From Pseudogemmobacter humi (GTDB lineage Bacteria > Pseudomonadota > Alphaproteobacteria > Rhodobacterales > Rhodobacteraceae), in the NCBI RefSeq assembly GCF_900609055.1, contig NZ_UXAW01000120.1:1-55172 (forward strand): a stretch of 55,172 nt of DNA. Direction: 5' to 3'. The notes beneath the pieces are model-generated. The model was not told where the DNA came from and did not search any database. It saw only the letters and a list, made by a program, of their open reading frames with translations. The position numbers were made by a program, and so were the translations under genes. Positions within the stretch are counted from its first letter, which is position 1. Each line of letters begins with the position of its first letter. Below, piece by piece: positions 3,103 to 46,226 of the stretch.

Positions 3103-3127
3103 GGAACCTTTGCTGGCCGAACCGATT
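3103..3127 (+). promoter_or_regulatory. possible EcfG-type promoter for cytochrome b561
   Basis: GGAAC at 3103-3107, a 16-nt spacer and GATT at 3124-3127, 21 nt before the ATG of the cytochrome b561 gene. The -10 departs from GGTT by one base, exactly as in the candidate site before nepR. It overlaps the opposing coxB promoter. Confidence 0.45.
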
Positions 3128-3144
3128 GGAAGGGAAAGGGTTCC
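3120..3144 (-). promoter_or_regulatory. EcfG-type promoter for coxBA
   Basis: On the minus strand GGAAC (3144-3140), a 16-nt spacer and GGTT (3123-3120) match the known EcfG -35/-10 form. The -10 is 35 nt before the proposed TTG start of coxB. The same spacing recurs before phyR, DUF1328 and other genes in this window. Confidence 0.7.
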
Positions 3145-3148
3145 GCTT

Positions 3149-3727
3149 ATGATCACGAATGAACATAAAGCCGCCCCGGCGGGCTATGCGCGGGGACAGA
3201 TCATCCTGCACTGGCTGATCGCGGCTCTGGTGCTGGCGCAGCTGGTGGTGAACGAGGATATCCGCGCGGCTTTCGGGGCGCGGCTGACCGGCGCCACGCC
3301 GCTGCCGCCCGGCGCGGCCTTCCACCTGATCGCGGGGCTCGCGGTGCTCGGGCTGATGCTGATCCGCATCGCGTTGCGGCTGATCCATGGCGCGCCACCG
3401 CCGCCGCCCGCGCCGCGGGTGATGCAGGTCGTGGCGGAATGGGCGCATCGCGGGCTTTACGCGCTGCTGCTGATGATGACCCTTTCGGGCGCCGCCGCCT
3501 GGTTCTGGCGCAGCGAGGCGGCGGGCCTCTTGCATGATGCCACGCGCTTTGCGCTGATCGGGCTGATCCTCGCCCATATCGCGGGCGCGCTGGTCGAGCA
3601 TTACCTGATCGGCAACCGGGCGATCCGGCGGATGCTTACTCCTTCGGCTCGCGCCTCCCGCGCGCCAGCCATTGCGAAACGTGGCGCAACAGCCACAGCA
3701 CCAGCACCGCCAGCACCGTCGCCATGA
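3149..3727 (+). CDS. cytochrome b561 family protein
   Basis: Di-heme b-type membrane cytochrome predicted to exchange electrons with the quinone pool. It is 192 aa with four hydrophobic helices. Candidate heme histidines lie in IILHW (residue 21), FHLIAG (about 59), the AEWAHRG segment and the last helix LAHIAGALVEHYLIG. ATG at 3149 is preceded by an AAGGGAAAGGG purine stretch. It is transcribed away from coxBA across a 63-bp gap that holds two overlapping EcfG-like promoters. The last 30 residues are low complexity (Ala/Pro) and run about 90 bp into the 3' end of the convergent mgtC-like gene, so the natural C-terminus may be longer than the functional core. Confidence 0.85.
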   Translation: MITNEHKAAPAGYARGQIILHWLIAALVLAQLVVNEDIRAAFGARLTGATPLPPGAAFHLIAGLAVLGLMLIRIALRLIHGAPPPPPAPRVMQVVAEWAHRGLYALLLMMTLSGAAAWFWRSEAAGLLHDATRFALIGLILAHIAGALVEHYLIGNRAIRRMLTPSARASRAPAIAKRGATATAPAPPAPSP

Positions 3728-4148
3728 TGGCAAGCGGCAGCCGCCCGGTGCCGCAGGCCAGCCCGATCGCCCCCGCCATCCACATCCCCGCCCCGGTGGT
3801 CAGCCCGGTGATCCTGCCGCCCGAGGTGATGATCGACCCGGCGGCCAGGAAGGCCACCCCCGCCGTCACCGCCTCGATCAGGCGCAGCGGGTCGCTTTGC
3901 AGCTGCATCGCGCCGGGCACTTCGGTGGCGATGATCTCGACCGAGATCAGCGTGAACAGACAGGCCGCCATCGCCACCATGATATGGGTGCGCAGCCCGG
4001 CGGCATGGGCGTGGATCTCGCGCTCGATGCCGATCACCGCGCCGAGCAGCGCCGCGAACAGCAGCCGGATCAGCGCCGTCTCGCCGCGCACGGCCTGGAA
4101 CGGATCGCGGAAATCGGCAATCAGCGCCTCGTAAAGGGGGTCGATCAT
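3636..4148 (-). CDS. MgtC/SapB family membrane protein
   Basis: Small integral membrane protein of 170 aa. It has the family's N-terminal signature around residues 27-60 (RLLFAALLGAVIGIEREI, then GLRTHIMVAMAACLFTLIS) and the following GVAFLAAGSII and LTTGAGMWMAGAIGLACG helices. MgtC proteins are linked to magnesium or phosphate stress and modulate ATP synthase in some bacteria; the exact role here is unknown. The ATG overlaps the stop of the topoisomerase gene (ATGA), so the two are one transcription and translation unit. The 3' end overlaps the convergent cytochrome b561 gene. Confidence 0.85.
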   Translation of the reverse strand: MIDPLYEALIADFRDPFQAVRGETALIRLLFAALLGAVIGIEREIHAHAAGLRTHIMVAMAACLFTLISVEIIATEVPGAMQLQSDPLRLIEAVTAGVAFLAAGSIITSGGRITGLTTGAGMWMAGAIGLACGTGRLPLAIMATVLAVLVLWLLRHVSQWLARGRREPKE

Positions 4149-5134
4149 CGGCGGGTCTCCGTTGTGTCCAGAAAGCTGAGCAGCCTGCGCTCGGGCGCGC
4201 GCAGGCCGGGGGTGTCGGGCGGGTTCAGGCCCGACAGCCGGTCCTGGCGCGCGGGCGCATCCAGCGCGGCCAGATCCAGCACCGCCGGATGTATGTAAGA
4301 GGACCGGCAGATCGCCGGGGTATTGTGCAGCCGAAGAGCCGCCGCCCCGGCCATGGCGCGAATGGTCAGCGGCTCTTCGGCGGCGCGCCCGAAAGCCGCC
4401 AGCGTGCCGCCCCAGGTGCGGAATGTCCTGGCGGTGACGCCCTCGCCCATGGCCTCGGCGAGATATCCGTTCACATCCCCGGTCCCGAGCGGACAGGGCC
4501 GCCCGTCCTCGTCCAGCCAGGTGAAGAGGTTGCGCCCCGGCAGATCGCCGATCTGATGCAGGATACGGTGCAGCTTGCGGTCGCGCAGCACCTGGCGCAC
4601 CCGCCGCCCGCCCTTGGCGCGGAAATCCAGCCGGACCGAGTCTTCGTCAAGCCGCAGATGCCGCCGCCGCAGCGTCACCGCGCCGAAAGAGCCGTTCTGC
4701 GCCGTATATTCCGGGTTGCCGATCCGCAGCCAGGCCCGGTCCAGCAGCATCACCAGCGCGGCGAGGGTGAAATCGCGGTTCCCCGCCTCCTGGCGCAGAT
4801 CGCGGTCCAGACGGCGGCGCAGGGCGGGCAAGGCGCGGGCGAAATCGGTCAGCCCGGCATATTTGGTTTCGGCCCGGCTCGCCTGCCACAGCGGGTGGTA
4901 GAGGTATTGCTTCCTTCCCCGCGCGTCGCGGCCGGTGGCCTGGATATGGCCATCCTCGCGCGGGCAGATCCAGACCTGTTCCCAGGCCGGGGGCACCGCC
5001 AGCGCCACGGCGCGCGCGCAGAGCGCGCCGCTCAGCCGCTGCCCGCCGGGGGAAAAGTAGCAAAACCCCTTGCCCGCGCGGCGCCGGGTGATGCCGGGGT
5101 CGCTGTCGGACACATAGACCAGCCCCTGCGTCAT
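4145..5134 (-). CDS. type IB DNA topoisomerase (poxvirus-like)
   Basis: Relaxes supercoiled DNA through a 3'-phosphotyrosyl intermediate. It is 329 aa, the usual size for bacterial poxvirus-type enzymes. The N-terminal half holds the DNA-binding beta domain. The catalytic domain carries arginines in TARTFRTWGG, a basic strand with Lys and Arg near KGGRRVRQV, and the active-site tyrosine in RSSYIHP (about residue 281). It precedes and overlaps the mgtC-like gene. A weak EcfG-like sequence (GGAAC-N16-GGAT, 5189-5165 minus) lies 31 nt before the start, so stress induction is possible. Bacterial TopIB genes often occur on accessory replicons. Confidence 0.9.
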   Translation of the reverse strand: MTQGLVYVSDSDPGITRRRAGKGFCYFSPGGQRLSGALCARAVALAVPPAWEQVWICPREDGHIQATGRDARGRKQYLYHPLWQASRAETKYAGLTDFARALPALRRRLDRDLRQEAGNRDFTLAALVMLLDRAWLRIGNPEYTAQNGSFGAVTLRRRHLRLDEDSVRLDFRAKGGRRVRQVLRDRKLHRILHQIGDLPGRNLFTWLDEDGRPCPLGTGDVNGYLAEAMGEGVTARTFRTWGGTLAAFGRAAEEPLTIRAMAGAAALRLHNTPAICRSSYIHPAVLDLAALDAPARQDRLSGLNPPDTPGLRAPERRLLSFLDTTETRR

Positions 5135-5164
5135 AGCCCCCTCGCGCCACCCACATGCGAAGAA

Positions 5165-5189
5165 ATCCCGATCCCCGCCGCGCGGTTCC
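5165..5189 (-). promoter_or_regulatory. weak EcfG-like promoter before topoisomerase IB
   Basis: Minus-strand GGAAC (5189-5185), 16 nt, then GGAT (5168-5165). The last element has one mismatch to GGTT. Distance to the ATG resembles the coxB site. Supported only by similarity to its neighbours. Confidence 0.3.
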
Positions 5190-5234
5190 GCCCGCCGCCG
5201 CTTCGGCGGGCCGCCGCCGATACCGGGCGGTGCA

Positions 5235-5259
5235 GGAACCGCCGCCGGGCCGCCGGGTT
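5235..5259 (+). promoter_or_regulatory. EcfG-type promoter for the PRC-barrel gene
   Basis: GGAAC at 5235-5239, 16-nt spacer, GGTT at 5256-5259. This is a full match to the form seen before phyR. It lies about 60 nt upstream of the PRC-barrel ATG. Confidence 0.65.
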
Positions 5260-5318
5260 TGAGGACTGGAACCGCGGAACCCGTTCACAGGCTCCGCGTC
5301 GCAACCCCGGAGGATAGC

Positions 5319-5615
5319 ATGGATCACAGCAGACATATCCCGCTCGACCGTCAGGAACTGAACGAGGCGATCCTGACCGACGCGCCGGTCTACGGCGCCG
5401 ACGACCGCAAGATCGGCACCATCTCGCATGTGCATGGCGTCGGCGCCGTCACCGATGTGGTGATCGACGTGGGCGGCTTTCTCGGCATCGGCTCGAAGCC
5501 GGTGCTCCTCAGCGTGGATCAGCTGAACCTGATGCGCGACGAGGACGGCAATGTCCATGGCGTCACGTCCTGGACAAAGGAACAGCTCAAGGAACTGCCC
5601 GAGCACCGCCACTGA
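5319..5615 (+). CDS. PRC-barrel domain protein
   Basis: Small soluble protein of 98 aa. Residues about 20-95 form a PRC-barrel domain, with VYGADDRKIGTISHVH, a VVIDVGGFLGIGSKPVLL segment and the closing VTSWTKEQLKELPEH. Such stand-alone PRC-barrels are abundant stress-induced proteins in alphaproteobacteria; their molecular role is not established. ATG at 5319 follows a clear CGGAGG site (about 7 nt). A full EcfG-type promoter lies upstream and a strong terminator directly downstream, so it is probably monocistronic and part of the general stress regulon. Confidence 0.85.
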   Translation: MDHSRHIPLDRQELNEAILTDAPVYGADDRKIGTISHVHGVGAVTDVVIDVGGFLGIGSKPVLLSVDQLNLMRDEDGNVHGVTSWTKEQLKELPEHRH

Positions 5616-5692: not shown

Positions 5693-6409
5693 ATGGAACC
5701 CGTGATCCCCTTCGACTGGCTGCGTCTGCTGATCGGCGACGCCCCGCCGCTGTTCCTGCTGGAAATCACCCTCCGGGTGCTGGCGATCTTTCTCTGGACC
5801 ACCACGATGCTGCGCTGGATCGGCGGGCGCAGCATCTCGCAGCTCTCGCTGGTCGAGTTCCTGCTGGTGATCGCGCTCGGCTCGGCGGTGGGCGACGGGA
5901 TGCTCTACCCCGACGTGCCCTTGCTGCATGCCTTCCTCGTGGTGTTCCTTGTGATCGCGATGGACAAGCTGATCGACTGCGGCATCCACAAATGGCACGG
6001 GTTCAAAACGGTGGTGGACGGAACACCCGTTCAGCTGGTGGAGCGGGGCCGCATCCTGACCACCGCGCTGAAAGCGGCCCGGATCGCGCCATCCGAGGCG
6101 CATGAGATGCTGCGGCTGAAGGGTATCCGCAACCTCGGCCAGGTCGAAACGGCCTGGATGGAGACCTCGGGCGCGGTCTCGGTGTTTTGCGCCGACGCCC
6201 CCGTGTCGGGGCTGCCGCTGGTGCCGCCGCCCGTTCTGCGCGAGGCAAAGCCGCTGCCGCCGGACGCGCGCGCCTGCTGCGCCGATTGCGGTTTCCTGAC
6301 CGATGCGCGAGCCCCCTGCCCGCATTGCGGCTGCACCGACCGGCTGGCCGCCGCTCTTCCGCCCTCACGGGCGTCATCGCTGAGCGAAGAGGTCCGTCAG
6401 GACCGATGA
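5693..6409 (+). CDS. DUF421 (YetF-like) membrane protein with C-terminal zinc ribbon
   Basis: Membrane protein of 238 aa. Three hydrophobic helices (about residues 18-105) are followed by the DUF421 cytosolic domain, with VVDGTPVQLVERGRILTTALK and a MLRLKGIRNLGQVETAWME segment. An extra C-terminal tail carries two cysteine knuckles, CCADC (about 193) and CPHCGC (about 209), like a zinc ribbon. Many DUF421 proteins end without such a tail. Function is unknown; DUF421 members are often stress or sporulation associated. The start at 5693 has only a weak AGGGCC site upstream. It is separated from the PRC-barrel gene by a terminator and converges on the SorC gene with an 8-bp gap. Confidence 0.8.
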   Translation: MEPVIPFDWLRLLIGDAPPLFLLEITLRVLAIFLWTTTMLRWIGGRSISQLSLVEFLLVIALGSAVGDGMLYPDVPLLHAFLVVFLVIAMDKLIDCGIHKWHGFKTVVDGTPVQLVERGRILTTALKAARIAPSEAHEMLRLKGIRNLGQVETAWMETSGAVSVFCADAPVSGLPLVPPPVLREAKPLPPDARACCADCGFLTDARAPCPHCGCTDRLAAALPPSRASSLSEEVRQDR

Positions 6410-6417
6410 GCGGCGGA

Positions 6418-14800: not shown

Positions 14801-15456
14801 CGGCGGCGGCGGAAGGTCGCGAACAGATCCGCCAGCCGCGCCTCGTTCGTCACCGAATCCGCCCGGGCGACATCAGTTGCGATGCTGCGGGCGCGATCCA
14901 GAGCGCGGCTTTCGCCGAGGCTCTCGCCGGTTCCGGCCACCTGGTCGGGCTCGGATTGCAGCCACAGAAGCAGGGTGAAAACGGCGACCGGCAGAACCTC
15001 GCCCGGCTCCAGCCCGGCGGCGGAGGCGGGCTCCAGATCGCGCAAGACCCGCTGCTCACGCAGGTCCAGATACAAAGCCGCGCTCAGCCTCGGCATCTCC
15101 CAGACCTCGTGGCGAGGGATCACCCTGAGCCAGGCCTGCTGCGCCGCCGCCTCGCTGATGAAGGCATGGGTCACGCCAAGCCGGTCAAGGATCAGCGACA
15201 GGCCGACATAGCAGAACCCCGCGAAATCGCTGGCCGCCGCCGCGCCGCGGTCGGCGAAATCCTGAAGGCTGGCCTGATCCGGCGCCCCCGCGCCCAGAAA
15301 CCGCCGCAAGACCTGCGAGGCGACGTGATCGAGCCGCCGCGCGATCTGATCGCCGGTCTTCAGCGCCAAAGCCGCCTCGCGCGGCAGAACGTCCAGCGGC
15401 GCGGTGCCCGCCAGCGTCTCGCGCCCGCTGCGAAGCGCATGACGCAGCCCGCGCAA
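14797..15456 (-). CDS. hypothetical protein, last gene of the SAF-oxidoreductase/AcoABC-like operon
   Basis: 219 aa from a TTG at 15456. Largely alpha-helical by composition, with no signal peptide or clear membrane helix. Features include FAGFCYVGLSLILDRLGVTH, an AFISEAAAQQAWLRVIPRHE stretch and an arginine-rich tail. I do not recognise the family. The TTG has no good ribosome site. The frame stays open upstream, and an AAGGAG 8 nt before an in-frame CTG (about 15507) would add a proline-rich leader, so the true start is uncertain. It lies 96 bp after the second SorC gene on the same strand and converges on glpD. Confidence 0.6.
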   Translation of the reverse strand: MRGLRHALRSGRETLAGTAPLDVLPREAALALKTGDQIARRLDHVASQVLRRFLGAGAPDQASLQDFADRGAAAASDFAGFCYVGLSLILDRLGVTHAFISEAAAQQAWLRVIPRHEVWEMPRLSAALYLDLREQRVLRDLEPASAAGLEPGEVLPVAVFTLLLWLQSEPDQVAGTGESLGESRALDRARSIATDVARADSVTNEARLADLFATFRRRR

Positions 15457-15552
15457 AGCCTCGCGCAGGGGGACGGGATGTGGAAGCGGCGGCGGGGGAA
15501 GGGCCAGGGGAGATGCTCCTTGCTGCGGTCTGCGGCGAGTATAGCCTGGAAG

Positions 15553-16518: not shown

Positions 16519-16535
16519 ATGGCGTCTCTCCGGTT

Positions 16536-32622: not shown

Positions 32623-32739
32623 GGCTGTGTTCCGCAAACCTCCGATGATCCTGGTGGGAATGGCCCGATCATGAAGCGGGCGAAGCCGCCTGTCCACAAC
32701 CACAATGGCATCCGGCGCGGCCTGCCCCGCCCCGCGAAA

Positions 32740-32770
32740 GGAAAAGCCACCGCCCTCAGGGGCGATGGCT
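32740..32770 (-). terminator. intrinsic terminator after DUF1328 gene
   Basis: Minus strand: AGCCATCGCCCCTGAGGGCG-GTGGCT stem-loop (32770-32745) followed by TTTTC. It lies 39 nt after the DUF1328 stop. Confidence 0.75.
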
Positions 32771-32808
32771 TCCTGCACCCGGGGACGGCGGGTGCATACC
32801 GCCGGTGG

Positions 32809-32982
32809 TCAGACCGGCGGACGGCTGCGGATCGCACGCGACAGGATCGCCACCACGAAGAGGGCGATGAAGACGAAGAACAGCACCTGCGCGATGGAAG
32901 ATGCCGTTCCCGCGACGCCGGTAAAGCCAAGCGACGCCGCGATCAGCGCAACGATCAGGAATGTAAGGGCCCAGCCAGGCAT
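32809..32982 (-). CDS. DUF1328 (YtjA-like) small membrane protein
   Basis: 57 aa with two hydrophobic helices: [20 protein letters not shown], a [10 protein letters not shown] turn, then [15 protein letters not shown] and a basic end. These match the whole length of the DUF1328 family. These proteins are common members of the alphaproteobacterial general stress regulon; their mechanism is unknown. ATG 32982 has AAGGAAAA upstream. A full EcfG-type promoter lies at 33025-33049 and a strong terminator follows, so the gene is a single unit. Confidence 0.85.
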
Positions 32983-33024: not shown

Positions 33025-33049
33025 AACCCGCCGCCGGTGCAAAGGTTCC
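33025..33049 (-). promoter_or_regulatory. EcfG-type promoter for DUF1328 gene
   Basis: Minus strand GGAAC (33049-33045), 16-nt spacer, GGTT (33028-33025). 43 nt before the ATG. Confidence 0.7.
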
Positions 33050-34159: not shown

Positions 34160-34184
34160 GGAACCAAACCCATTCGCCGGGATT
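34160..34184 (+). promoter_or_regulatory. possible EcfG-type promoter for nepR-ecfG
   Basis: GGAAC at 34160-34164, 16 nt, GATT at 34181-34184. It overlaps the opposing phyR promoter, just as the b561 and coxB sites overlap. The leader to the nepR ATG would be about 110 nt. Confidence 0.45.
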
Positions 34185-34191
34185 AGGTTCC
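34167..34191 (-). promoter_or_regulatory. EcfG-type promoter for phyR
   Basis: Minus strand GGAAC (34191-34187), 16 nt, GGTT (34170-34167), 43 nt before the phyR ATG. The known autoregulation of phyR supports this site and fixes the local consensus. Confidence 0.75.
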
Positions 34192-34301: not shown

Positions 34302-34511
34302 ATGCCAGACAAGAACCCTGCAAAAAGCACCGGCAAGACCTCCGGGAAGAACGACGCCCCGACCCCCCGCGAGCCCGTGGTCGATCCGGTCCTGCAACAG
34401 CAGATCGACGAGAATCTGCGGCTGCTCTACAAGGAATGCCTGAAGGACGACCTGTCTGAATCGCTTCAGCTTCTGGTCGACAGGCTGCGCAACGGGGGGA
34501 AACCGTCGTGA
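34302..34511 (+). CDS. nepR: anti-sigma factor NepR
   Basis: 69 aa. A disordered Lys/Thr/Pro-rich N-terminus (about 1-25) is followed by two helices with the NepR core: PVLQQQIDENLRLLYKECL and LSESLQLLVDRLR. NepR holds EcfG inactive until phosphorylated PhyR displaces it. The 3' end overlaps the ecfG start (GTGA), which couples production of the two partners. ATG 34302 is the only start that gives the usual size; upstream sequence in the frame is not coding. Confidence 0.92.
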   Translation: MPDKNPAKSTGKTSGKNDAPTPREPVVDPVLQQQIDENLRLLYKECLKDDLSESLQLLVDRLRNGGKPS

Positions 34512-35092
34512 CGGCCGCGCAACCCGCCGCTCCGCCGCCTGATCGCGACCCGCGCGAGGAGATCATCGTGCATCTGCCCGCGCTCCGGGCCTTCGCGCTC
34601 GGGATCACCCGCGATCCGGTGCTGGCCGACGATCTGGTGCAGGAGACCCTGCTCAAGGCCTGGTCCAAGTTCCATCTGTTTGAACAGGGCACCAAACTGC
34701 GGTCCTGGCTGTTCACCATCCTGCGCAACAGCCTGCGCACCATTCAGCGCAAACGGGCGCGCGAAGTGGCCGATGTCGATGACGTGCTGGCGGGCCGGCT
34801 GGCCACCAAACCCGCGCAGGAGGGCAATCTGGTGCTGCGCGAGGTCGAGGCCGCGCTGGCGAAACTGCCGGTCGAGCAGCGCGAGGTGCTCTGGCTGGTC
34901 GGCGCCATGGGGTTTTCCATCGAAGAGGCGGCCGAGACCTGCGGCTGCGCCACCGGCACGATCAAAAGCCGCGCCAACCGCGGGCGGCGCGCGCTGGCGG
35001 CGCTGCTTGGGATGAAGGCGGGCGAGTCCATTGAGTTGACCGACCGCGCCACGCTGGCGGTGATGGCCGGCCAGCCGGGCCGGTCCGGCTGA
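34508..35092 (+). CDS. ecfG: RNA polymerase sigma factor EcfG
   Basis: 194 aa ECF sigma factor of the EcfG group. Region 2 (about residues 22-85) has LPALRAFALGITRDPVLADD, LVQETLLKAW and LRSWLFTILRN. Region 4 (about 115-170) has ALAKLPVEQREVLWLVGAMG, SIEEAAETCGCATGTIKSR and RGRRALAALLG. The start is GTG at 34508, overlapping nepR. It is followed 4 nt later by a sensor kinase. It is predicted to read the GGAAC-N16-GGTT promoters listed in this window. Confidence 0.95.
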   Translation: MTAAQPAAPPPDRDPREEIIVHLPALRAFALGITRDPVLADDLVQETLLKAWSKFHLFEQGTKLRSWLFTILRNSLRTIQRKRAREVADVDDVLAGRLATKPAQEGNLVLREVEAALAKLPVEQREVLWLVGAMGFSIEEAAETCGCATGTIKSRANRGRRALAALLGMKAGESIELTDRATLAVMAGQPGRSG

Positions 35093-35096: not shown

Positions 35097-36572
35097 ATGC
35101 CGGGCCGCAGGATCCTGTCTCGCAACGGCCCGTTCAGCCGTCTGACGACCCGCCTTGTGCTTCTGATGACGCTGGCGCTTCTGCCCCTGGGCACCATCGC
35201 GGTGTCCCTGTCATCCGGAATGATCGGCCGCGACCGCATCGCCAACCGCCTGCTGACCGGCATGACCACCAACGCTTTGCGCGCCGAGGCCGAACCGCTG
35301 AGCGCCGCCTGGCAGCAGATCTCGTCGCTCGCCGCCCGGGCCGGGGAGGCGAGCGGCGACGAAATCTGCGCCATGCTCGCCGCGGAGCCGGGGGCGTCCC
35401 TGCTGGAGGACGGCGCCGCGCTGTTCAACCGCCAGGGCGAACGGATCGGCGGGGCCGATCCCGGCGCTGCCTTGCCGCCCGCGACCGTCCTCGACCTGAT
35501 CGCCCGCGCCGCGCCCGACGGGGCCATTCTCGGCGCCCCGGACCATGGCGGCGGCGACAGCCCGTTGGTCTTTGTCGCCAGCATCGTGGTACCCGGCCAG
35601 GTCTTCGCCATCGCGGGCTGGCCCGGCAGCGCGCCGCCCGCGCCGCTGGCCCCGTCCAGCTATATGCCGCTGGCCTTCCCGGCGCTGATGTGGCTGGCCA
35701 GCCTCGGCGTGATCTTCATGTCGCTCGACTATCTGCTCCTGCGCCATCTGCGCAATCTCAACCGCCAGATGCGCCGCTTCGCCCTTGGCCACCCCGAGCC
35801 CTGGCAGGAACTGAACCACGACGCCCCGACCGAGCTGCGCCAGCTCAACACCACCTTCCAGAACATGGCCCGCATCATCGCCCGCGACGAGCAGGAGCTG
35901 GAATCCGCCCTGTCGGAGAAATCCGCCCTGCTGCGCGAGGTGCATCACCGGGTCAGGAACAACCTTCAGTTGATCTCGTCGATCATCAACCTGCAACTGC
36001 GGCAGATCGACGATCCGGCCGCGCGCCGGGTGCTGCGCGACGTGCAGGACCGGGTGCTGTGCCTTGCGATCATCCACTATCAGCTGCACGGGGCCGAGCG
36101 GCTGTCGGATCTGCGCGCCGATCAGGTGCTGGAGCAGATCCTCCGCCAGCTGGTCGCCGCGCGCCGCAGCCCGGGGCGCGAGCCCGGCCTGACGCTGCGC
36201 ATCGCGCCGCTGGCGATCCCGGCCGACCGGATGGTGCCGCTGGCCTTTCTGCTGACCGAGGCGGTCAGCGACCCGATCCGCCGGATGGAGAGCCGCAACG
36301 ACCCCCTGCCCTGGATCGACGTGCGGCTGAGCGAGCCCGCCCCCGGCACCGGCCTGCTGGAAGTCGCCACCGCCGATCCCGAAAACGGCGGCGGCGGCCT
36401 GCCGATGCGCGACCGGATCCGCGACGATCTGATCCGCGCCTTCGCCGGTCAGCTCGGCGGCAGTCTGGAAACCGCATCCGCGCAGGATCCGCGCGGCCCG
36501 GCCCGCCGCCTGCGCCTCAGCTTCGCGACCGGCACTGGCACGGGCACGCCGCAACCGGCGCTGCCGGGCTGA
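35097..36572 (+). CDS. membrane HisKA_2-type histidine kinase (PhyK-like) with degenerate ATPase
   Basis: 491 aa. Helix 1 (about residues 20-42), a periplasmic sensor (about 45-185), helix 2 (about 193-215), a HAMP-like linker and coiled coil, then the HisKA_2 phosphoacceptor EVHHRVRNNLQLISSIINLQ (His about 283). The ATPase domain is unusual. Where EL(V/I)TNALKHA is expected there is LLTEAVSDPIRRM, so the metal-binding Asn is replaced. The D-x-G-x-G box reads ATADPENGGGG, and the lid is short. Next to nepR-ecfG this position is that of PhyK, which controls PhyR phosphorylation. The enzyme may be a weak kinase, or mainly a PhyR phosphatase or scaffold. Confidence 0.85.
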   Translation: MPGRRILSRNGPFSRLTTRLVLLMTLALLPLGTIAVSLSSGMIGRDRIANRLLTGMTTNALRAEAEPLSAAWQQISSLAARAGEASGDEICAMLAAEPGASLLEDGAALFNRQGERIGGADPGAALPPATVLDLIARAAPDGAILGAPDHGGGDSPLVFVASIVVPGQVFAIAGWPGSAPPAPLAPSSYMPLAFPALMWLASLGVIFMSLDYLLLRHLRNLNRQMRRFALGHPEPWQELNHDAPTELRQLNTTFQNMARIIARDEQELESALSEKSALLREVHHRVRNNLQLISSIINLQLRQIDDPAARRVLRDVQDRVLCLAIIHYQLHGAERLSDLRADQVLEQILRQLVAARRSPGREPGLTLRIAPLAIPADRMVPLAFLLTEAVSDPIRRMESRNDPLPWIDVRLSEPAPGTGLLEVATADPENGGGGLPMRDRIRDDLIRAFAGQLGGSLETASAQDPRGPARRLRLSFATGTGTGTPQPALPG

Positions 36573-36592: not shown

Positions 36593-36617
36593 GGAACAAA
36601 TCCCCGTTACCCCGGTT
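36593..36617 (+). promoter_or_regulatory. EcfG-type promoter for small secreted protein gene
   Basis: GGAAC at 36593-36597, 16-nt spacer, GGTT at 36614-36617; 30 nt before the ATG at 36647. Confidence 0.65.
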
Positions 36618-36646: not shown

Positions 36647-36826
36647 ATGAAGATCCCTTTGTTCATTGTCATTCTTGCCGCCGCCGCCGCTCTGCCGCCC
36701 GCATCCGGGGAACAAACCGCGGTGGCGGGCTTTACCTTGCTGGCGCAGGCCGGACCGCCCTGCCCCGCCGCGCCGGCGCAACCCGATACCGGAGCGCAGA
36801 AGATCTGCGCCCTGCGGTTTCGGTAG
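36647..36826 (+). CDS. small secreted protein, putative stress-regulon member
   Basis: 59 aa. A hydrophobic signal peptide (MKIPLFIVILAAAAALPPAS, cleavage near ASGE, about 21) is followed by a mature chain of about 38 residues with two cysteines (CPAAPAQPDTGAQKIC), which could form a disulfide. No family recognised. ATG 36647 has a strong GGAGGAAGG site 4-5 nt upstream and an EcfG-type promoter before that, which is the main reason to call this a gene. It sits immediately after the PhyK-like gene and converges on the phytochrome-like gene with a 6-bp gap. Confidence 0.65.
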   Translation: MKIPLFIVILAAAAALPPASGEQTAVAGFTLLAQAGPPCPAAPAQPDTGAQKICALRFR

Positions 36827-36832: not shown

Positions 36833-37720
36833 TCACCGCAACCCGCGCCCGGCCGCCGCGATCTGCAACGCGAAATACTGGCCGAACAGTTCCGCCGCGA
36901 TCCGCAACGCCAGCGGCACCGTTTTCGGCGCGGCATTATGGCAGGCAATCGTCCCCCAGGGCTCGTTCCCGCACATCACCGCAAGCGTCAGCACCGCGCC
37001 GATTCCCTGCGCGCGCAGGTCGGCCAGCGGGCCGGGCGCAGCGACCCGCAGCCAGGCATGGGCCAGATCCGGGGGCGGCCCCTGCGCGGGCTCCAGCCGC
37101 ACCGGCGCCGCGCCGGTATCGGGGATCAGCCGCAGCGGCGGGCCGGGGCAGACCGCGCCCGGCAGCCCCGCCGCCGAAGGCCCCGCCGCGCCGGAAAGCT
37201 GCGCGCTGGCCAGCACCTCGGGCCCCTCCGCTGCGAACCGGCTGACCGTTACCCGGTCGAAACCCAGCATCGCCTGCATCAGCCGCGCGGCCATGGTGAA
37301 CAGCCGCGCCGGATCGCTCACCTGCGCCAGCCGCAGCACCATATGCCGCAACAGATCCAGCGTCTGTTCCGCGCTCTGGCCGCCCGGCTCTGCCGGTTCC
37401 AGCTCGACGATCATCGCCCCGGCATGCGTGTGGATCGCCGCATCGAACGCCCCCATGGCGCAGGGCAGCCGCAGCCCGGCGATCATGCCCTGGCGCTCGG
37501 GCCCGCCGCCCGCGCGCGCCGCCGCGTTGCGCAGATCGTGGACCGCCGCCGCGCCCAGGATATCCGCCAGCGCGAGGCCGGGGAACAAATCCCCGCCGAA
37601 CCGCGTTATTCCGCGAAAGTTTTGCGAGACGCAGCGGAGCTCCAGTGAAACCGGGTCGCAGACCAGCATCGCCCCATGCGGCAGGATCGCCCCGGCAGGA
37701 CCGCCCGCATCCTCAGCCAT
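36833..37720 (-). CDS. truncated phytochrome-like photosensory module (PAS-GAF only)
   Basis: 295 aa. The PAS part begins with ILPHGAMLVCD (family: I-Q-P-H-G). The GAF part (about residues 130-295) ends with the phytochrome hallmark LAHAWLRVAAPGPLADLRAQ, WGTIACHN and ALRIAAELFGQYFALQI. Missing features: the N-terminal biliverdin-binding Cys segment, the ASDIP motif of GAF (here AAGLPG), the PHY domain and any output domain. The start at ATG 37720 is fixed by GGGAGG upstream and a stop a short way above in frame. It may bind no bilin, or bind it differently, and act by protein contact. The gene lies beside the stress-response core. Confidence 0.8.
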   Translation of the reverse strand: MAEDAGGPAGAILPHGAMLVCDPVSLELRCVSQNFRGITRFGGDLFPGLALADILGAAAVHDLRNAAARAGGGPERQGMIAGLRLPCAMGAFDAAIHTHAGAMIVELEPAEPGGQSAEQTLDLLRHMVLRLAQVSDPARLFTMAARLMQAMLGFDRVTVSRFAAEGPEVLASAQLSGAAGPSAAGLPGAVCPGPPLRLIPDTGAAPVRLEPAQGPPPDLAHAWLRVAAPGPLADLRAQGIGAVLTLAVMCGNEPWGTIACHNAAPKTVPLALRIAAELFGQYFALQIAAAGRGLR

Positions 37721-40367: not shown

Positions 40368-40392
40368 AACGATCAGGGCCGCGTCCGGTTCC
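40368..40392 (-). promoter_or_regulatory. EcfG-type promoter on minus strand, convergent with the 40303 promoter
   Basis: Minus strand GGAAC (40392-40388), 16 nt, CGTT (40371-40368). It faces the forward promoter and has no annotated downstream gene. Confidence 0.6.
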
Positions 40393-40457: not shown

Positions 40458-43400
40458 ATGGCAAAACCACGCTCTGCCCCTTATGAAGTGACGCTTTTCC
40501 TTGCCGTCGCCGCGATCATCGCCGCCACTTTCGTCGTGGACGGGCTGGTGCCGCTCGGCACCAATGTCTGGCTGGCCTATCTGTTGCCGCTGGTGCTGGC
40601 CTTTATGTCGCGGCTGCCCTGGCTGCCGGTTCTGGTCGCCGCGACCGCCATCATCGCCATGGCCATCGGCGTGTTCCTCAGCCCCGACGGCGTGCGCCCG
40701 CAGATCGCCATCCTGAACCGCTCGATCGCCGCCGTGGTCATGCTGATCCTGGCCGGTCTGGGCGTGGCGATGATCCGCTACCGGCTGCGGCTGACCGCCC
40801 TCGACTGGGAGCAGCGCGCCGAGGTGCGCCTTGCCCAGGCCTTGCAGGGCGATCCCGACGCCGCCACCATCGGCGAGCGCGCGCTCGCCACGCTGGCCGA
40901 TGTGCTCGACGCCCGCGCCGCCGCCGCCTGGGTGGCCCAGGGGCCGCATCTGAAGCGCATCGCCGCCTGGGGTCTCGATGCCGACACCCGCGGCGACGGC
41001 GATCAGGGCCACCTGCGCCGCGCGCTGAACGAGGGCCGGGTGATCGGCCTGACCGCGGATCCCGAACACGCGCTCGGCTGGCGATCGGGCCTGCTCCGCG
41101 GGCGCACGGTGCATTCGGTGATCGTGCCGGCCAAAGTCGGGCCGGTGGTCAACGGCGTGCTGGAATTCGGCCTCGACCATCCGCTCTCGGACCGCGCCCG
41201 CGATCTGCTGGAACAGGTCTCCGTCATGCTGGGCGCCGAACTGCGCTCGGCCGCCTATCGCACCGAACTGCATGACCTGATCGAGGAAACCCGCCGCCAG
41301 GCCGAGGAATTGCGCAGCCATACCGAGGAACTCGCCGCCAGCAACGAGGAACTCGAAGAGCAAACCAGCGCCCTCCAGATCAGCGAGGCCCGGCTGCGCG
41401 AACAGCAGGCCGTGCTGGAGGAGCAGAACGCCCGGCTGGAAGAGCAGCGCGACGCCATCGCCCGCTCGCGCCGTCAGTTGTCCGATCAGGCCCAGGTTCT
41501 GGCCCGCGAAAGCCGCTACAAATCGGAATTCGTCGCCAATATGTCGCATGAGCTGCGCACGCCGCTGAACGCGCTTCTGATCATGGCGCGGCTCCTGGCC
41601 GAGAACCGCGGCCGGACCCTGAGCGAGGAACAGCTTCGCTGGGCGGAAACCATCGAAGCCTCGGGCAAGGATCTGCTGGCGCTGATCAACGACATTCTGG
41701 ATCTCTCGAAGATCGAGGCCGGCAAGGTCGAGGTGAATCCCGAATCCGTCTCGCCCGCCGCGCTGGCCGGGCAGCTCAAAACCAGCTTCGAGGCCCAGGC
41801 CCGGCAGAAGGGGCTGGATTTCACCCTGGACCTGGCGCCCGACATCGCCCGGATCGTCACCGATCCGGCCCGCGTCGGGCAGATCCTGCGCAATTTCCTG
41901 TCGAATGCGCTGAAATTCACCGACAAGGGCGGCGTCACCCTCGGCGTGAAACCCGACGGCACCGGCGTGGCGATTTCGGTGAAGGACACCGGCATCGGCA
42001 TCTCGGAATCCGATCAGAAAGCCGTGTTCGAGCCGTTCCGCCAGGCCGACGGCACCATCTCGCGTCGCTACGGCGGCACCGGGCTGGGGCTGTCGATCTC
42101 GCGCGATCTGGCAGAGCTTCTGGGCGGGAAGATCACGCTCGACAGCCGCCCGGGCCAGGGCAGCACCTTCACCCTGCACCTGCCCGACCAGGCCCCGGGC
42201 GCAAGCGCGGCCCTGCCGCCACAGATGCCGCAGGACATGCCGCTTGGCCGGCTTCCCGGCTTTACCGACGACCGCGACCTGCCCGACCGCACCGAACGTC
42301 TTCTGCTGATCGTCGAGGACGACCCCGCCTTCGCCCGCCTTCTGTTCGATCTGGCGCATGAGATGGATTTCGGCGCCATCGTCGTGGGCACCGCCGACGA
42401 TGCGATCCGCGCCGCGCATGATCACCGGATCCGCGGCATCATCCTTGACATCGGCCTGCCCGACCATTCCGGCATGACCGTGCTCGACCGGCTGAAACGC
42501 GATGCCGAGACCCGGCACATCCCGGTCCATGTCGTCTCGGCCAACGATCATATCCGCGCCGCGCTGGAACAGGGCGCGGTCAGCTACCTGCTGAAACCCG
42601 TGGAACGCGAGGCGCTGGTCCAGGCGCTGGAAGCCCTCGGCCGGCAGCTTGAGCACCACCTGCGCCGCGTGCTGATCGTCGAGGACGATCCCGCGCAACT
42701 GGAAGGGCTGCGCGAATTGCTGCGCAGCGACGAGGTCGAGACGCAAGGCGCCGCCACCGCCGCCGAGGCGCTGGAGGCCTGCCGCGCCACCACCTTCGAC
42801 TGCATCGTGCTGGACATGACCCTGCCCGACGCCTCGGGTTTCGACCTCCTGGAAAAGCTGAGCGAGGACGAGACCGCCTCTTTCCCGCCGGTGATCGTCT
42901 ACACCGCCCGCGCTTTGTCCGAGGCCGAGGAACAGCGCCTGCGCCGCCATTCGCGCTCGATCATCATCAAGGGCGCCAAATCGCCCGAACGGCTGATCGA
43001 CGAAGTGACCCTGTTCCTGCACCAGGTGGTCTCCGACCTGCCGCCGCGCCAGCGCGAGATGCTGGCCGCCTCGCTCAACCGCGACGCCCAGCTTGAGGGG
43101 CGGCGGATCCTGGTGGTCGAGGACGATATCCGCAACATCTACGCGCTTTCCGGCATTTTCGAGCCGCATGGCGCCGAGGTCCAGATCGCCCGCAACGGCC
43201 GCGAGGCGCTGGATGCGCTGGCGCGCGTCGCCGAAGGAACCGCGCCGAAGGTGGACCTCGTGCTGATGGATGTGATGATGCCCGAGATGGACGGCCTCAC
43301 CGCCACCCGCGAGATCCGCCGCGATCCGCGCTGGAAAACGCTGCCCATCATCATGCTGACCGCCAAGGCGATGGCCGACGATCACGCGCAATGCCTGGCG

Positions 43401-43481
43401 GCCGGGGCCAACGACTATCTGTCGAAGCCGCTCGATGTCGACAAACTCCTGTCGCTGGCGCGGGTCTGGATGCCGAAATGA
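40458..43481 (+). CDS. membrane-anchored GAF hybrid histidine kinase with three receiver domains
   Basis: 1007 aa. N-terminal membrane helices (about residues 10-115) are followed by a GAF domain (about 130-270), a long coiled coil, HisKA with MSHELRTPLNAL (His about 364), an ATPase with FLSNALKFTDKG, KDTGIGI and GTGLGLSISRDLA, and three receivers with phospho-Asp in ILDIGLPDHSG (about 663), VLDMTLPDASG (about 784) and LMDVMMPEMDG (about 937). The stop overlaps the cheR ATG (ATGA). This layout matches complex kinases that sit with CheR/CheB-type and HWE kinases in alphaproteobacteria. It is driven by an EcfG promoter, so it is induced by stress and may feed back on it. Confidence 0.92.
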   Translation: MAKPRSAPYEVTLFLAVAAIIAATFVVDGLVPLGTNVWLAYLLPLVLAFMSRLPWLPVLVAATAIIAMAIGVFLSPDGVRPQIAILNRSIAAVVMLILAGLGVAMIRYRLRLTALDWEQRAEVRLAQALQGDPDAATIGERALATLADVLDARAAAAWVAQGPHLKRIAAWGLDADTRGDGDQGHLRRALNEGRVIGLTADPEHALGWRSGLLRGRTVHSVIVPAKVGPVVNGVLEFGLDHPLSDRARDLLEQVSVMLGAELRSAAYRTELHDLIEETRRQAEELRSHTEELAASNEELEEQTSALQISEARLREQQAVLEEQNARLEEQRDAIARSRRQLSDQAQVLARESRYKSEFVANMSHELRTPLNALLIMARLLAENRGRTLSEEQLRWAETIEASGKDLLALINDILDLSKIEAGKVEVNPESVSPAALAGQLKTSFEAQARQKGLDFTLDLAPDIARIVTDPARVGQILRNFLSNALKFTDKGGVTLGVKPDGTGVAISVKDTGIGISESDQKAVFEPFRQADGTISRRYGGTGLGLSISRDLAELLGGKITLDSRPGQGSTFTLHLPDQAPGASAALPPQMPQDMPLGRLPGFTDDRDLPDRTERLLLIVEDDPAFARLLFDLAHEMDFGAIVVGTADDAIRAAHDHRIRGIILDIGLPDHSGMTVLDRLKRDAETRHIPVHVVSANDHIRAALEQGAVSYLLKPVEREALVQALEALGRQLEHHLRRVLIVEDDPAQLEGLRELLRSDEVETQGAATAAEALEACRATTFDCIVLDMTLPDASGFDLLEKLSEDETASFPPVIVYTARALSEAEEQRLRRHSRSIIIKGAKSPERLIDEVTLFLHQVVSDLPPRQREMLAASLNRDAQLEGRRILVVEDDIRNIYALSGIFEPHGAEVQIARNGREALDALARVAEGTAPKVDLVLMDVMMPEMDGLTATREIRRDPRWKTLPIIMLTAKAMADDHAQCLAAGANDYLSKPLDVDKLLSLARVWMPK

Positions 43482-44338
43482 ACGCGCTGCCCGCCCCTGC
43501 CCTTTCCGCTGACGCCCTCGCGGCGGGGATCGAGCTCGACCTGTTCCTCGAGGCGCTGAAACGGCGCTGGCATTACGATTTCCGCTCGTATTCGCGCGCC
43601 TCGCTGCACCGCCGGGCCGGGGTCGCGCGCGAGCGCCTCGGCTGCGCCACGCTGTCGGAACTCCAGGGCCGCCTGTTGCGCGACACCGCCGTGCTGCATG
43701 AGGTGATCGACTGCATGACCGTCCAGGTCAGCGACCTGTTCCGCGATCCCGACTATTACCGGGCGCTGCGCGAGCAGGTGATCCCGCATCTGCGCACCTT
43801 TCCCTCGCTCAAGGTCTGGGTGGCGGGCTGCGCCAATGGCGAAGAGCTTTACTCGCTGGCGATCCTGTTTTCCGAAGAGGGGCTGCTGGAGCGCACCCTG
43901 TTCTACGCCACCGAGATCAACCGCCGCGCCCTTTCCCGCGCGGGCGCAGGCGTCTACGACATCGCCCGCCTGCCCGGATTTTCGGAAAACTACCAGCGCG
44001 CGGGCGGCAGATCCTCGCTGTCCGATTATTACACCGCGGCCTATGGCGGCGCGGCCTTCCACCGCGAATTGCGCCGCCGGGTGGTGTTCACCGAACACGA
44101 TCTCGCCACCGATCAGGTGTTCTCCGAGGTGCATCTGATCTCATGCCGCAACGTGCTGATCTATTTCGACGCGGCACTCCAGGACCGCGTTTTCGGCCTG
44201 TTCGCCGATGCTCTGGCGCGCGGCGGCTTCCTCGGCCTCGGCGCGCATGAGACGTTGCGCTTTTCCAGCCGCACCGCGGCCTTCTCTCCGTTCAACGAAA
44301 GCCAGCGCATCTGGCGCCGCACCCCGGAGGTCTATTGA
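43478..44338 (+). CDS. CheR-type protein-glutamate methyltransferase
   Basis: 286 aa. An N-terminal helical CheR domain (about residues 15-85, with FLEALKRRWHYDFRSYSRAS) is followed by the SAM-binding domain with VWVAGCANGEELYSLAILF (about 115) and CRNVLIYFD (about 225). CheR normally methylates chemoreceptors, but no receptor, CheB or other chemotaxis gene is in the window. Here it lies between two sensor kinases with overlapping stop/start codons, so it probably modifies a kinase or another signalling partner. Confidence 0.9.
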   Translation: MNALPAPALSADALAAGIELDLFLEALKRRWHYDFRSYSRASLHRRAGVARERLGCATLSELQGRLLRDTAVLHEVIDCMTVQVSDLFRDPDYYRALREQVIPHLRTFPSLKVWVAGCANGEELYSLAILFSEEGLLERTLFYATEINRRALSRAGAGVYDIARLPGFSENYQRAGGRSSLSDYYTAAYGGAAFHRELRRRVVFTEHDLATDQVFSEVHLISCRNVLIYFDAALQDRVFGLFADALARGGFLGLGAHETLRFSSRTAAFSPFNESQRIWRRTPEVY

Positions 44339-46152
44339 TGCCTGACAGGCCGATCCGTTTCCTTCTGGTCGATGATGTCGCCGAGAACCTGATCGCGCTC
44401 GAAGCCCTGCTCGTCCGCGACGGGCTTGAGATCCACAAGGCCCGCTCGGGGGCCGAGGCGCTGGAACTGATGCTGTCGCAGGATTTCCAGCTTGCCTTCG
44501 TCGACGTGCAGATGCCCGGGATGAACGGCTACGAACTGGCCGAACTGATGCGCGGCACCGAGCGCACCCGCGGCATCCCGATCATCTTCGTCACCGCCGC
44601 CGAACTCAGCGAGGCGCGGCGCTTCCGCGGCTATGAGGCGGGCGGCGTCGATTACATCTTCAAGCCGATCGACCCCGTGATCCTGCAATCCAAGGCCGAT
44701 GTGTTCTTCCGTCTGGGCCGCCAGGCCAAGGATTTGGAACGCCAGCGCGATGAGTTGCGCGAGGCCGCCCGCACCCGCGATCTGGCGCTGGCCTCGCTGC
44801 GCGCGCATGCCGACAATTCACCGCTGGCGCTGGTGGAATGCGACGACGATCTGACCGTGCACGGCTGGTCGATGGGGGCCGAGCGCATCCTCGGCATCCC
44901 GCCCGCCGCGATGATCGGCCAGCCGCTTGCGCATGCCGGGCTGTTCACCGACAAGACGCTGGCGATGCTGACGAACTGGATCGCCGGGGCCGACAGCCTG
45001 GCCCGCCATACCGCCGAAGTGGTCGCCGAAACCCCCGCGGGCCAGATCCATGCCGAGCTTTACGGCTCGGTCCTGACCGATCCCGGCAGCGGGCGGGCCT
45101 CGCTGTCGCTGCAACTCCTCGACGTGACCGAGCGGCACCGCGCCGAAGAGGTGCGCTCGCTGCTGGTGGGAGAGCTGAACCACCGCATCAAGAACACCCT
45201 CGCCAATGTCCAGGCCATCGCGCGCCAGACCCTGCGCCATTCCGGCGATCTGGACGATTTCGGCGCGCGGTTCTCGGGGCGGCTCCAGGCGCTGGCGCGG
45301 GCGCATTCGATCCTGTCGGATGTCACCTGGTCCTCGGCCTCGCTGGACGAGCTGCTGGACGATCTGATCCGCGCCGGGACGCTCGACCCCGACAGCCTGC
45401 ACCGCTCGGGGCCGCAGATCGGCCTTTCGCCCGAGAACACCCTGCGCATGGCGCTGGTGCTGCACGAACTCGTCACCAATGCGGCCAAATACGGCGCGCT
45501 CTCGGTCCCCGAGGGCCGGATCCGCCTTCACAGCGCGGTGGAGAACGGCGAACTCACCCTTGTCTGGCATGAGATCGGCGGCCCGCCGGTCACGCTCCCC
45601 GCCGCGCCCGGCTTCGGCTCGACCCTGATCGAGGCGGGCACCGGCGATCACGACGCCAGCGTCGACTGGCGCCCCGAAGGCGCGGTCTGGACCATACGCA
45701 TCCGCAACGGCTTTAGCTGCGCCGCCCCCGCCGGCAGCGGCCCGGCCGCCCTGCCCGGCAAAGGCGCAGGCCCCGCCGGGGTGATCACCGGCTGCCGGGT
45801 GCTGCTGGTCGAGGACGAGCCGCTGGTCGCCATGGATGTCACCTGCGAACTGGAGGACGCCGGCGCCGCGCTGGTCCGGCTGGCGCAGACCGTGGACGAG
45901 GCCATCGCCGCCGCCGATGCCGGCCAGATCGACGTGGCGCTGCTCGACGGCAATCTGGCGGGCCAGCCGGTCGACCGCGTGGCCGAGACCCTGGCGCGGC
46001 GCAAGATCCCGTTCTGCTTCGTCTCGGGCTACGGCAAGGAACATCTGCCGCGCGCCTTCGCCGATACGCCGGTGCTGACGAAGCCGGTCGATCCCGGCGC
46101 GCTGCTCGACGTGATCTGCCGGATCCGCGCGCGGCAGGTGGCCGGAACCTGA
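44338..46152 (+). CDS. REC-PAS-HWE kinase-REC hybrid histidine kinase
   Basis: 604 aa from ATG 44338, which overlaps the cheR stop (TGATG). Receiver 1 has FLLVDDVAENLIALEALL and phospho-Asp in AFVDVQMPG (about residue 55). A PAS-like segment follows (about 160-275). The HWE-type dimerisation domain has GELNHRIKNTLANVQAIARQ (His about 281) and the ATPase a good N box LHELVTNAAKYGAL (about 380). Receiver 2 has LLVEDEPLVAMDV and ALLDGNLAG (about 536). Unlike the PhyK-like kinase, its ATPase looks intact. HWE kinases are known inputs to PhyR, so this may be an active kinase of the local stress pathway. Confidence 0.9.
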   Translation: MPDRPIRFLLVDDVAENLIALEALLVRDGLEIHKARSGAEALELMLSQDFQLAFVDVQMPGMNGYELAELMRGTERTRGIPIIFVTAAELSEARRFRGYEAGGVDYIFKPIDPVILQSKADVFFRLGRQAKDLERQRDELREAARTRDLALASLRAHADNSPLALVECDDDLTVHGWSMGAERILGIPPAAMIGQPLAHAGLFTDKTLAMLTNWIAGADSLARHTAEVVAETPAGQIHAELYGSVLTDPGSGRASLSLQLLDVTERHRAEEVRSLLVGELNHRIKNTLANVQAIARQTLRHSGDLDDFGARFSGRLQALARAHSILSDVTWSSASLDELLDDLIRAGTLDPDSLHRSGPQIGLSPENTLRMALVLHELVTNAAKYGALSVPEGRIRLHSAVENGELTLVWHEIGGPPVTLPAAPGFGSTLIEAGTGDHDASVDWRPEGAVWTIRIRNGFSCAAPAGSGPAALPGKGAGPAGVITGCRVLLVEDEPLVAMDVTCELEDAGAALVRLAQTVDEAIAAADAGQIDVALLDGNLAGQPVDRVAETLARRKIPFCFVSGYGKEHLPRAFADTPVLTKPVDPGALLDVICRIRARQVAGT

Positions 46153-46201
46153 GCCACCGCGCCCGTCCGGCGGGAAAATCTGCACGCTTTCGCGCCGGGC
46201 G

Positions 46202-46226
46202 GGAACCATCCCCCGCCCCGCCGGTT
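46202..46226 (+). promoter_or_regulatory. EcfG-type promoter for 29-residue peptide gene
   Basis: GGAAC at 46202-46206, 16 nt, GGTT at 46223-46226; 28 nt before the ATG. Confidence 0.65.

Follow-up and report, generated by a model that had tools for sequence, protein, structure and literature searches.

A repABC replicon of Pseudogemmobacter humi with a probable accessory PhyR-NepR-EcfG stress module and its candidate promoters

When a plasmid carries the genes of a general stress switch, does it also carry the promoters that this switch would read, and how would such a set relate to the one already resident in the cell? The question is raised by contig NZ_UXAW01000120.1 (C133) of the alphaproteobacterium Pseudogemmobacter humi, analyzed here over its entire 55,172 bp (the window) within a host genome of 4.47 Mb (4,472,338 bp) in 143 contigs. 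We found phyR, a putative nepR, and ecfG on this contig, together with a PhyK-like kinase gene, repABC replication genes, and EcfG-type promoters ahead of about ten gene groups. We judge it likely that a complete accessory PhyR-NepR-EcfG stress module, controlling itself as well as stress genes and sensor kinases, is present on the repABC replicon.

The replication and switch genes, with the promoters between phyR and nepR, are as follows.

50086-53544, minus strand: repC, repB, and repA, replication and partition genes (PF03428, PF11800, PF07506, PF13614)
33258-34124, minus strand: phyR, anti-anti-sigma response regulator of 288 amino acids (aa) (PF22029 PhyR_sigma2, PF22233, PF00072; NCBIfam NF006623)
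34302-34511, plus strand: nepR, putative anti-sigma factor of 69 aa (PF18557), between phyR and ecfG and overlapping the ecfG start
34508-35092, plus strand: ecfG, sigma factor (Sigma70_r2 and r4_2) with Lys at the SigH Asn77 position
35097-36572, plus strand: PhyK-like HisKA_2 sensor kinase downstream of ecfG (PF07568, E 6e-21)
34160-34191, both strands: overlapping divergent promoter pair of phyR and nepR, made up of the next two sites
34160-34184, plus strand: GGAAC-N16-GATT towards nepR-ecfG (relaxed pattern)
34167-34191, minus strand: GGAAC-N16-GGTT towards phyR (exact pattern)

With repA, repB, and repC all present, the contig is a repABC replicon, whole or part of one. It may be incomplete, because its left end interrupts a cytochrome oxidase operon (coxA, coxB) and its right end holds a Tn3 transposase fragment. 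A repC-family match also occurs on three other host contigs. PhyR has the sigma-like domain and the receiver expected of the family, passes the NF006623 cut-off (341.6 bits against 240), and is 75% identical to the copy on a plasmid of Ketogulonicigenium vulgare. EcfG, whose best solved relative is 5uxx, is 73% identical to K. vulgare EcfG and 46-73% identical to seven EcfG-like proteins, which places it in the EcfG type. NepR is 47% identical to the corresponding K. vulgare open reading frame (ORF) and 42% identical over 33 aa to an annotated Gemmobacter NepR; it had no NCBIfam match. The kinase matches NF051872 PhyK with E 1e-44 and 153 bits, under the 750 cut-off. Thus, of the three switch genes that had been proposed from the sequence alone, phyR and ecfG are indeed there and nepR probably is, in the expected place but with a weak profile score; a PhyK-like kinase lies on the same repABC replicon.

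The published EcfG motif is GGAAC-N16-CGTT (PMC3892343, PMC7083833). The original prediction listed eight matches to GGAAC-N16-(G/C)GTT in the window and expected fewer than one by chance. All eight were recovered at exactly the coordinates and strands given, and all are intergenic; a ninth exact match, at 48672-48696(+), had been missed. Dinucleotide-preserving shuffles yielded a mean of 0.58 matches and a maximum of 3, with none of 100 shuffles reaching nine. Intergenic sequence makes up about 6% of the window and holds 8 of the 9 sites (gene boundaries set by hand). Under the same hand-set limits, the window contains 158 copies of GGAAC, 24 intergenic and 134 genic; N16-SGTT follows 8 of the 24 vs 1 of the 134 (P = 7e-7), and N16-(G/C)(G/A)TT follows 10 vs 2 (P = 5e-8). 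The mechanical gene caller used elsewhere in the genome makes 6 of the 9 window sites intergenic, as it overextends phyR and calls a poorly scoring ORF of 80 aa across the DUF1328 site, and it places 18 of the 91 matches outside the window between genes. One mechanical call without a family, at 14956-16512(+), lies opposite a gene at 15553-16761 that we take to be of the SorC type, so intergenic counts there are approximate.

Relaxing the motif extends the set: A at the second -10 base adds sites at nepR and a cytochrome b561 gene, and a 17-nucleotide (17-nt) spacer adds one at a topoisomerase IB gene. The gene-facing sites fall into two stress clusters, at 3.1-5.3 kb and 33.0-46.2 kb, and between 5260 and 32,600 the sole match to GGAAC-N16/17-(C/G)(G/A)TT is a genic one at 18659. 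The claim that all but one of the listed sites lie 20-130 nt from a start codon agrees with our measurements, which gave 29-130 nt for seven of the eight, 40368(-) being the exception.

phyR and nepR-ecfG are divergent, with a GGAAC-type promoter on each side. The gap between the genes contains GGAACC-N20-GGTTCC, in which each -10 element adjoins the -35 element of the opposite promoter, and this overlap suggests that the two promoters could not be occupied simultaneously. Inverted GGAAC(C/T) pairs of this kind occur at 24 of 37 EcfG loci and, in a separate count, at 10 of 10 from the genus (L132-L141). An overlapping phyR/nepR promoter was not named in any of the titles or abstract starts searched.

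The sites outside the switch and the genes that they face are listed below.

3120-3144, minus strand: EcfG-type site (GGTT), 34 nt before coxB (exact pattern)
3103-3127, plus strand: EcfG-type site (GATT) that overlaps the cox site and lies 21 nt ahead of the cytochrome b561 gene (relaxed pattern)
2117-3085, minus strand: coxB, start codon uncertain (COX2 and cytochrome c; TIGR02866 above cut-off)
3-2120, minus strand: coxA, cytochrome oxidase subunit I, open at the contig end (PF00115, 454.6 bits)
3149-3727, plus strand: cytochrome b561 family protein (PF01292)
5164-5189, minus strand: EcfG-type site (GATT) with a 17-nt spacer, 29 nt before topoisomerase IB (relaxed pattern)
4145-5134, minus strand: topoisomerase IB, overlapping mgtC at 3636-4148 (PF01028, PF21338, PF02308)
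5235-5259, plus strand: EcfG-type site (GGTT), 59 nt before the PRC-barrel gene (exact pattern)
5319-5615, plus strand: PRC-barrel protein, followed by yetF at 5693-6409 (PF05239, PF04239)
33025-33049, minus strand: EcfG-type site (GGTT), 42 nt before the DUF1328 gene (exact pattern)
32809-32982, minus strand: DUF1328 small protein, with a hybrid kinase 30 bp further on (PF07043)
29986-32778, minus strand: hybrid histidine kinase (PAS, GAF, HisKA, and REC domains by Pfam)
36593-36617, plus strand: EcfG-type site (GGTT), 29 nt before a 59-aa ORF at 36647-36826 (exact pattern; spacer start resembling a class seen on contig C101)
40303-40327, plus strand: EcfG-type site (CGTT), 130 nt before a hybrid kinase-CheR-HWE kinase cluster at 40458-46152 (exact pattern)
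40368-40392, minus strand: EcfG-type site (CGTT), no gene downstream (exact pattern)
46202-46226, plus strand: EcfG-type site (GGTT), 31 nt before a very small ORF at 46258-46344 (exact pattern)
48672-48696, plus strand: ninth exact match, antisense within a proC-like gene and probably there by chance

Neither the 59-aa ORF nor the very small ORF matched a family in the profile search. The hybrid histidine kinase is possibly co-transcribed with DUF1328, given the 30-bp gap between them. In Sphingomonas melonis, topoisomerase IB and PRC-barrel genes are EcfG-dependent (PMC6599016). The placement of the sites in the window is not random, and comparable sites recur in relatives: at phyR and nepR in five relatives and in a second host set on contig C49, at DUF1328 in the five relatives (with C in place of G), and at the PRC-barrel gene in three. 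The kinase-CheR-kinase cluster also has upstream GGAAC sites, with -10 TATT in K. vulgare and CGTT after a 17-nt spacer in Paracoccus sp. AK26. This cluster, which encodes a hybrid kinase, a CheR-like methyltransferase, and an HWE kinase with receivers, is itself found on plasmids of both organisms. We also note that the cox operon and the cytochrome b561 gene have overlapping divergent EcfG-type promoters at 3103-3144, in a geometry resembling that of phyR/nepR.

The operons, phosphotransfer, partner switching, and transcription that would connect these parts are proposed by analogy with studied systems. Stress would activate the HWE/HisKA_2 kinases, phosphorylated PhyR would draw NepR off EcfG, and EcfG-RNA polymerase would then transcribe the units behind GGAAC-N16/17-N(G/A)TT. 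EcfG-type promoters would control the module itself via the overlapping divergent phyR/nepR promoter, and would also drive the replicon's stress genes and sensor kinases. With sites ahead of phyR, nepR-ecfG-kinase, DUF1328-hybrid kinase, and hybrid kinase-CheR-HWE kinase, an active module would boost both itself and its sensors.

Several observations count against such a module. NepR reaches only E 0.002 and 18.1 bits with PF18557 (frame from 34293), under the 25.7 cut-off, and EcfG scores 248.5 bits vs the NF009198 equivalog cut-off of 270, which the C49 copy passes at 289.7. The Lys of the window EcfG occupies a position at which substitution by alanine causes a severe loss of SigH activity (PMC6411747). 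Three sites, those of topoisomerase IB, nepR, and b561, emerged only under the relaxed motif, 6 of whose 17 matches are genic (18659, 32608, 37582, 48672, 48723, and 49475). Among the exact matches, 40368(-) faces no gene and 48672 is genic, and pattern density across the genome is mostly background. Roseobacter litoralis (L037), finally, lacks a usable site at either phyR or nepR.

The original prediction had also proposed looking for a second phyR-nepR-ecfG set, and one is present: C49 carries phyR, nepR, ecfG, and a kinase, the nepR and kinase being assigned by position and sequence, not by profile. Contig C101 carries a lone third ecfG; a phyR-like match there was considered as a third phyR and rejected, as it is this ecfG. 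Its neighbors are presumably genes for a DUF892 protein, a short-chain dehydrogenase (SDR), and superoxide dismutase. Across the genus, EcfG was detected in 11 of 13 genomes including the host, and the best matches in the other ten are 48-52% identical to the window EcfG and cluster with C49 in the tree. In G209 and G210, the C49-type ecfG lies on contigs of at least 3.1 Mb and at least 1.9 Mb, so it is probably chromosomal. Two genus EcfG-like matches contain an in-frame TGA and are possibly broken paralogues (L148, L143).

The window EcfG stands apart from this C49/genus clade as sister to the K. vulgare plasmid EcfG (Shimodaira-Hasegawa-like approximate likelihood-ratio test [SH-aLRT] 99), in a quick tree of 47 of 59 sequences, 12 having been missed by the extraction pattern. 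A sample of the family gave an EcfG match at E 1e-25 in 94 of 199 genomes; at E 1e-66, only five others passed among 394 family genomes, with 58-63% identity to the window EcfG. The window-type set occurs once among the 13 genus genomes, and this sole occurrence together with the K. vulgare kinship suggests lateral acquisition. The set is thus accessory, with lateral transfer as its probable origin.

With three EcfG copies in one host, the proposal that the replicon carries both the switch and many of its targets stands in part. EcfG-type promoters do precede the switch, DUF1328, PRC-barrel, topoisomerase IB-MgtC, cox/b561, and sensor-kinase genes, but they are not assignable to the plasmid EcfG alone, because the host has another full set on C49 and a lone ecfG on C101. 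We consider it an even call whether the C49 and C101 EcfGs read the plasmid promoters in a pooled regulon, to which the plasmid would add only dosage and sensors. The plasmid sites share GGAAC and N(G/A)TT, and those at 40303 and 40368 have CGTT as in the C49 island. Published cases allow for sharing: two Sphingopyxis EcfGs appear to share targets, with GGTT a natural -10 (PMC7083833), and Rhizobium etli EcfG1 and EcfG2 have some common targets (PMC3892343). On the other side, the C49 phyR and nepR sites have C at the first -10 base where 9 of the 10 gene-facing window sites have G, and each R. etli EcfG favors its own promoter (PMC3892343).

A further link to C101 comes from the spacer. Sites 36593 and 46202 start GGAAC-N2/3-TCCCC, and together with the genic match at 37582 they resemble one site of the C101 island, which precedes its DUF892-like gene. 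This form occurs at 8 places in the genome and at 0 for the reversed control (the pattern was picked after seeing the sites); three are in the window, one of them genic, and the other five include C75 and C125, both genic by the mechanical caller. Based on this likeness, sites 36593 and 46202 may be read by the C101 EcfG. Since 40303 in turn has the CGTT of C49, the replicon promoters may serve more than one EcfG. The match at 37582-37607(+) is of the GGAACAAATCCCC type with a 17-nt spacer, and lies within and antisense to a PAS/GAF gene at 36833-37720. On C101 itself (L015, 14968-19084), the sites of the lone ecfG island begin GGAACAA and are partly common to genome G205, possibly marking a separate EcfG class.

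The G at the first -10 base raises the question of whether the plasmid regulon is instead set apart. We compared sites upstream of the same genes in the window, in five plasmid or metagenome-assembled relatives (L033-L036, L152), and in the C49 set; for L152 and the window, start codons were in part assigned manually. The first -10 base is G at all 4 comparable window promoters (phyR, nepR, DUF1328, PRC-barrel) and at 0 of the 20 comparison sites, which have C at 19 (phyR 6, nepR 6, DUF1328 5, PRC-barrel 2) and T at 1 (L152 PRC-barrel). For the K. vulgare PRC gene, we used the site at 49 nt and set aside a farther TGTT match (226 nt); R. litoralis was left uncounted, with a TGTT match 233 nt before phyR only and none at nepR. 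Considering all gene-facing window sites, G (GGTT or GATT) is found at 9 of 10, and the kinase cluster retains C. Elsewhere, in 51 other loci, the matches at phyR and nepR promoters have G in 7 of 91 cases and C in 72, counting the first match per direction, some of which are perhaps not real promoters, and with L151 dropped. The window therefore departs from the consensus CGTT, and in light of the published flexibility of the -10 (PMC7083833), this is a departure and not a defining failure.

The sigma factor differs too. At the SigH Asn77 position, Lys is found only in the window among 52 EcfGs, with Asn in 49, Asp in 1, and Ser in 1; the alignment was made by eye via the common GT(N/K)L..W stretch, with SigH numbering inferred from PMC6411747. 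Within the open complex of SigH, the specificity loop holds the flipped T through T76 and N77, and the preceding G:C pair is contacted by residues 91 and 92 (PMC6411747). The EcfG comparison shows further differences at the residues corresponding to SigH 90-94.

We raise only tentatively the idea that the plasmid EcfG and its regulon co-evolved a private -10, with G for C before G/A-T-T, giving two partly insulated stress programs per cell. The corresponding alternative to the shared reading, a joint drift to a G-initial -10 largely apart from the resident CGTT regulon, is possible, though we doubt it. The base counts above and the unique Lys inside the specificity loop (PMC6411747) speak for it. 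Against it, SigH Asn77 contacts the second T of GTT, which is unchanged here, and not the base before G (PMC6411747); G occurs at six Asn-type loci, in one direction or in both (L103, L117, L118, L122, L126, L153); and a one-to-one link between the Lys residue and the -10 base was accordingly not established. GGTT is also the S. melonis PRC-barrel promoter (PMC6599016) and a natural Sphingopyxis variant (PMC7083833), the kinase cluster keeps CGTT, and the case rests on a single lineage and few promoters. GGTT occurs in the C101 island too, although the EcfG there has Asn, and is common to that island and G205. A plasmid-caused C-to-G shift in that island was rejected, as the homologous stress genes of G205 show the same first -10 letter. 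In G205, the genes that we take to encode an SDR and a DUF892 protein have G at their sites and the presumed small-protein gene has C; its EcfGs are at most 51% identical to the window EcfG.

A less favorable interpretation of the same changes is that the Asn-to-Lys change cripples EcfG, and that the -10 elements left the consensus because selection on them was lost, with the resident EcfGs doing the work. Activity falls severely in SigH N77A (PMC6411747), the -10 elements CATT and TGTT lowered EcfG transcription (PMC7083833), and the window EcfG falls under the NCBIfam cut-off. We nevertheless find decay unlikely: the reading frames of the switch genes are open, the gene-facing promoters retain GGAAC, the spacing, and TT, and mostly one base has changed to one letter, which decay would not yield.

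Genome-wide counts of the pattern, which the original prediction had suggested as a check, gave a divided answer. The window is denser, with 9 of 100 genome matches on 1.2% of the DNA (binomial P = 4.6e-6, post hoc), but the genome-wide total compares with 62 for the reversed control pattern, and the CGTT form is at control level (48 vs 50). GGTT is above control (52 vs 12), and is also raised in G199 (40 vs 21), a genus member without detected EcfG. For these reasons, we rejected the counts alone as evidence. That the sites are chance matches in a GC-rich genome, or belong to another extracytoplasmic function (ECF) sigma factor with a GGAAC -35, is very improbable: counts near or modestly above controls and two distant ECF-like matches in the host (C99, C118) would fit, against strong intergenic enrichment, placement before phyR and nepR, and comparable sites in relatives.

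The accessory module can now be compared with known systems. A tblastn search of PhyR against plasmids matched 337 records, 13 of them with one place covering 80% of PhyR, including Ketogulonicigenium, Gemmobacter, Roseobacter, and Dinoroseobacter. The plasmid location of the switch is thus already known and not new, phyR being carried on plasmids of K. vulgare, Gemmobacter, Dinoroseobacter, R. litoralis, and others; the titles and abstract starts searched did not name plasmid phyR sets in Rhodobacterales. In all five plasmid records inspected, phyR points away from ecfG and from the small ORF or annotated nepR that precedes ecfG; DUF1328 is within the stretch shown in 4 of 5, and all 5 are typed as non-mobilizable.

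The window shares with the PhyR-NepR-EcfG (ECF15) general stress response the divergent phyR and nepR-ecfG, HisKA_2/HWE kinases, and GGAAC-N16/17 promoters ahead of core and stress genes. It differs in being a repABC replicon beside a full resident set, in having mostly GGTT/GATT in place of CGTT, and in the Lys of the specificity loop. The nearest set found is on K. vulgare plasmid 2 (NC_017385.1; PhyR 75%, EcfG 73%), which also has homologous DUF1328, PRC-barrel, MgtC, and kinase-CheR-kinase genes. There, a single plasmid holds phyR, the nepR-like ORF, ecfG, mgtC, DUF1328, and PRC-barrel, with the kinase-CheR-kinase genes about 40 kb off; unlike the window, it has C at the phyR, nepR, DUF1328, and PRC promoters and Asn in EcfG. 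R. etli EcfG2 is likewise an accessory, plasmid-borne EcfG beside a chromosomal one and prefers its own promoter (PMC3892343), but the one NepR known there is chromosomal (PMC8103513), whereas the window holds the entire switch. Sphingopyxis granuli has paralogous EcfG1 and EcfG2 and natural -10 boxes including GGTT and CATT; its paralogues seem to share targets and CGTT is its commonest -10, in contrast to the mostly G-initial sites of the replicon (PMC7083833).

From about 6.4 to 29.8 kb of the contig, transport and catabolism genes predominate, many from sugar-related families. At 53656-54410, a Phd/YefM-type antitoxin and PIN-domain toxin pair adjoins repA and is likely a plasmid maintenance system. 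The flavin oxidoreductase at 46500-48536 matches Paracoccus and Rhodobacter plasmid genes annotated hpbA (N-methylproline demethylase), and the matches that include it have 80-86% DNA identity to plasmids of these genera. The idea that transfer of the replicon would move a working stress response is not supported here: no relaxase or conjugation family matched among the window ORFs scanned, on a contig that perhaps represents the replicon incompletely.

The switch itself is of an ordinary type; what varies is that it is complete, shares one replicon with its promoters and sensors, sits alongside a resident set, and has a shifted -10. Published work describes as unsettled what multiple EcfG copies do and how their promoter choices differ (PMC3892343, PMC8103513), and this replicon offers a case of an accessory general stress switch coexisting with a resident one, plus kinases that may feed it. 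One differing base at most of its promoters and one specificity-loop residue provide a simple handle on whether paralogous EcfGs become insulated. If the promoters and EcfG have in fact shifted together, the plasmid would carry its own promoter dialect along with it.

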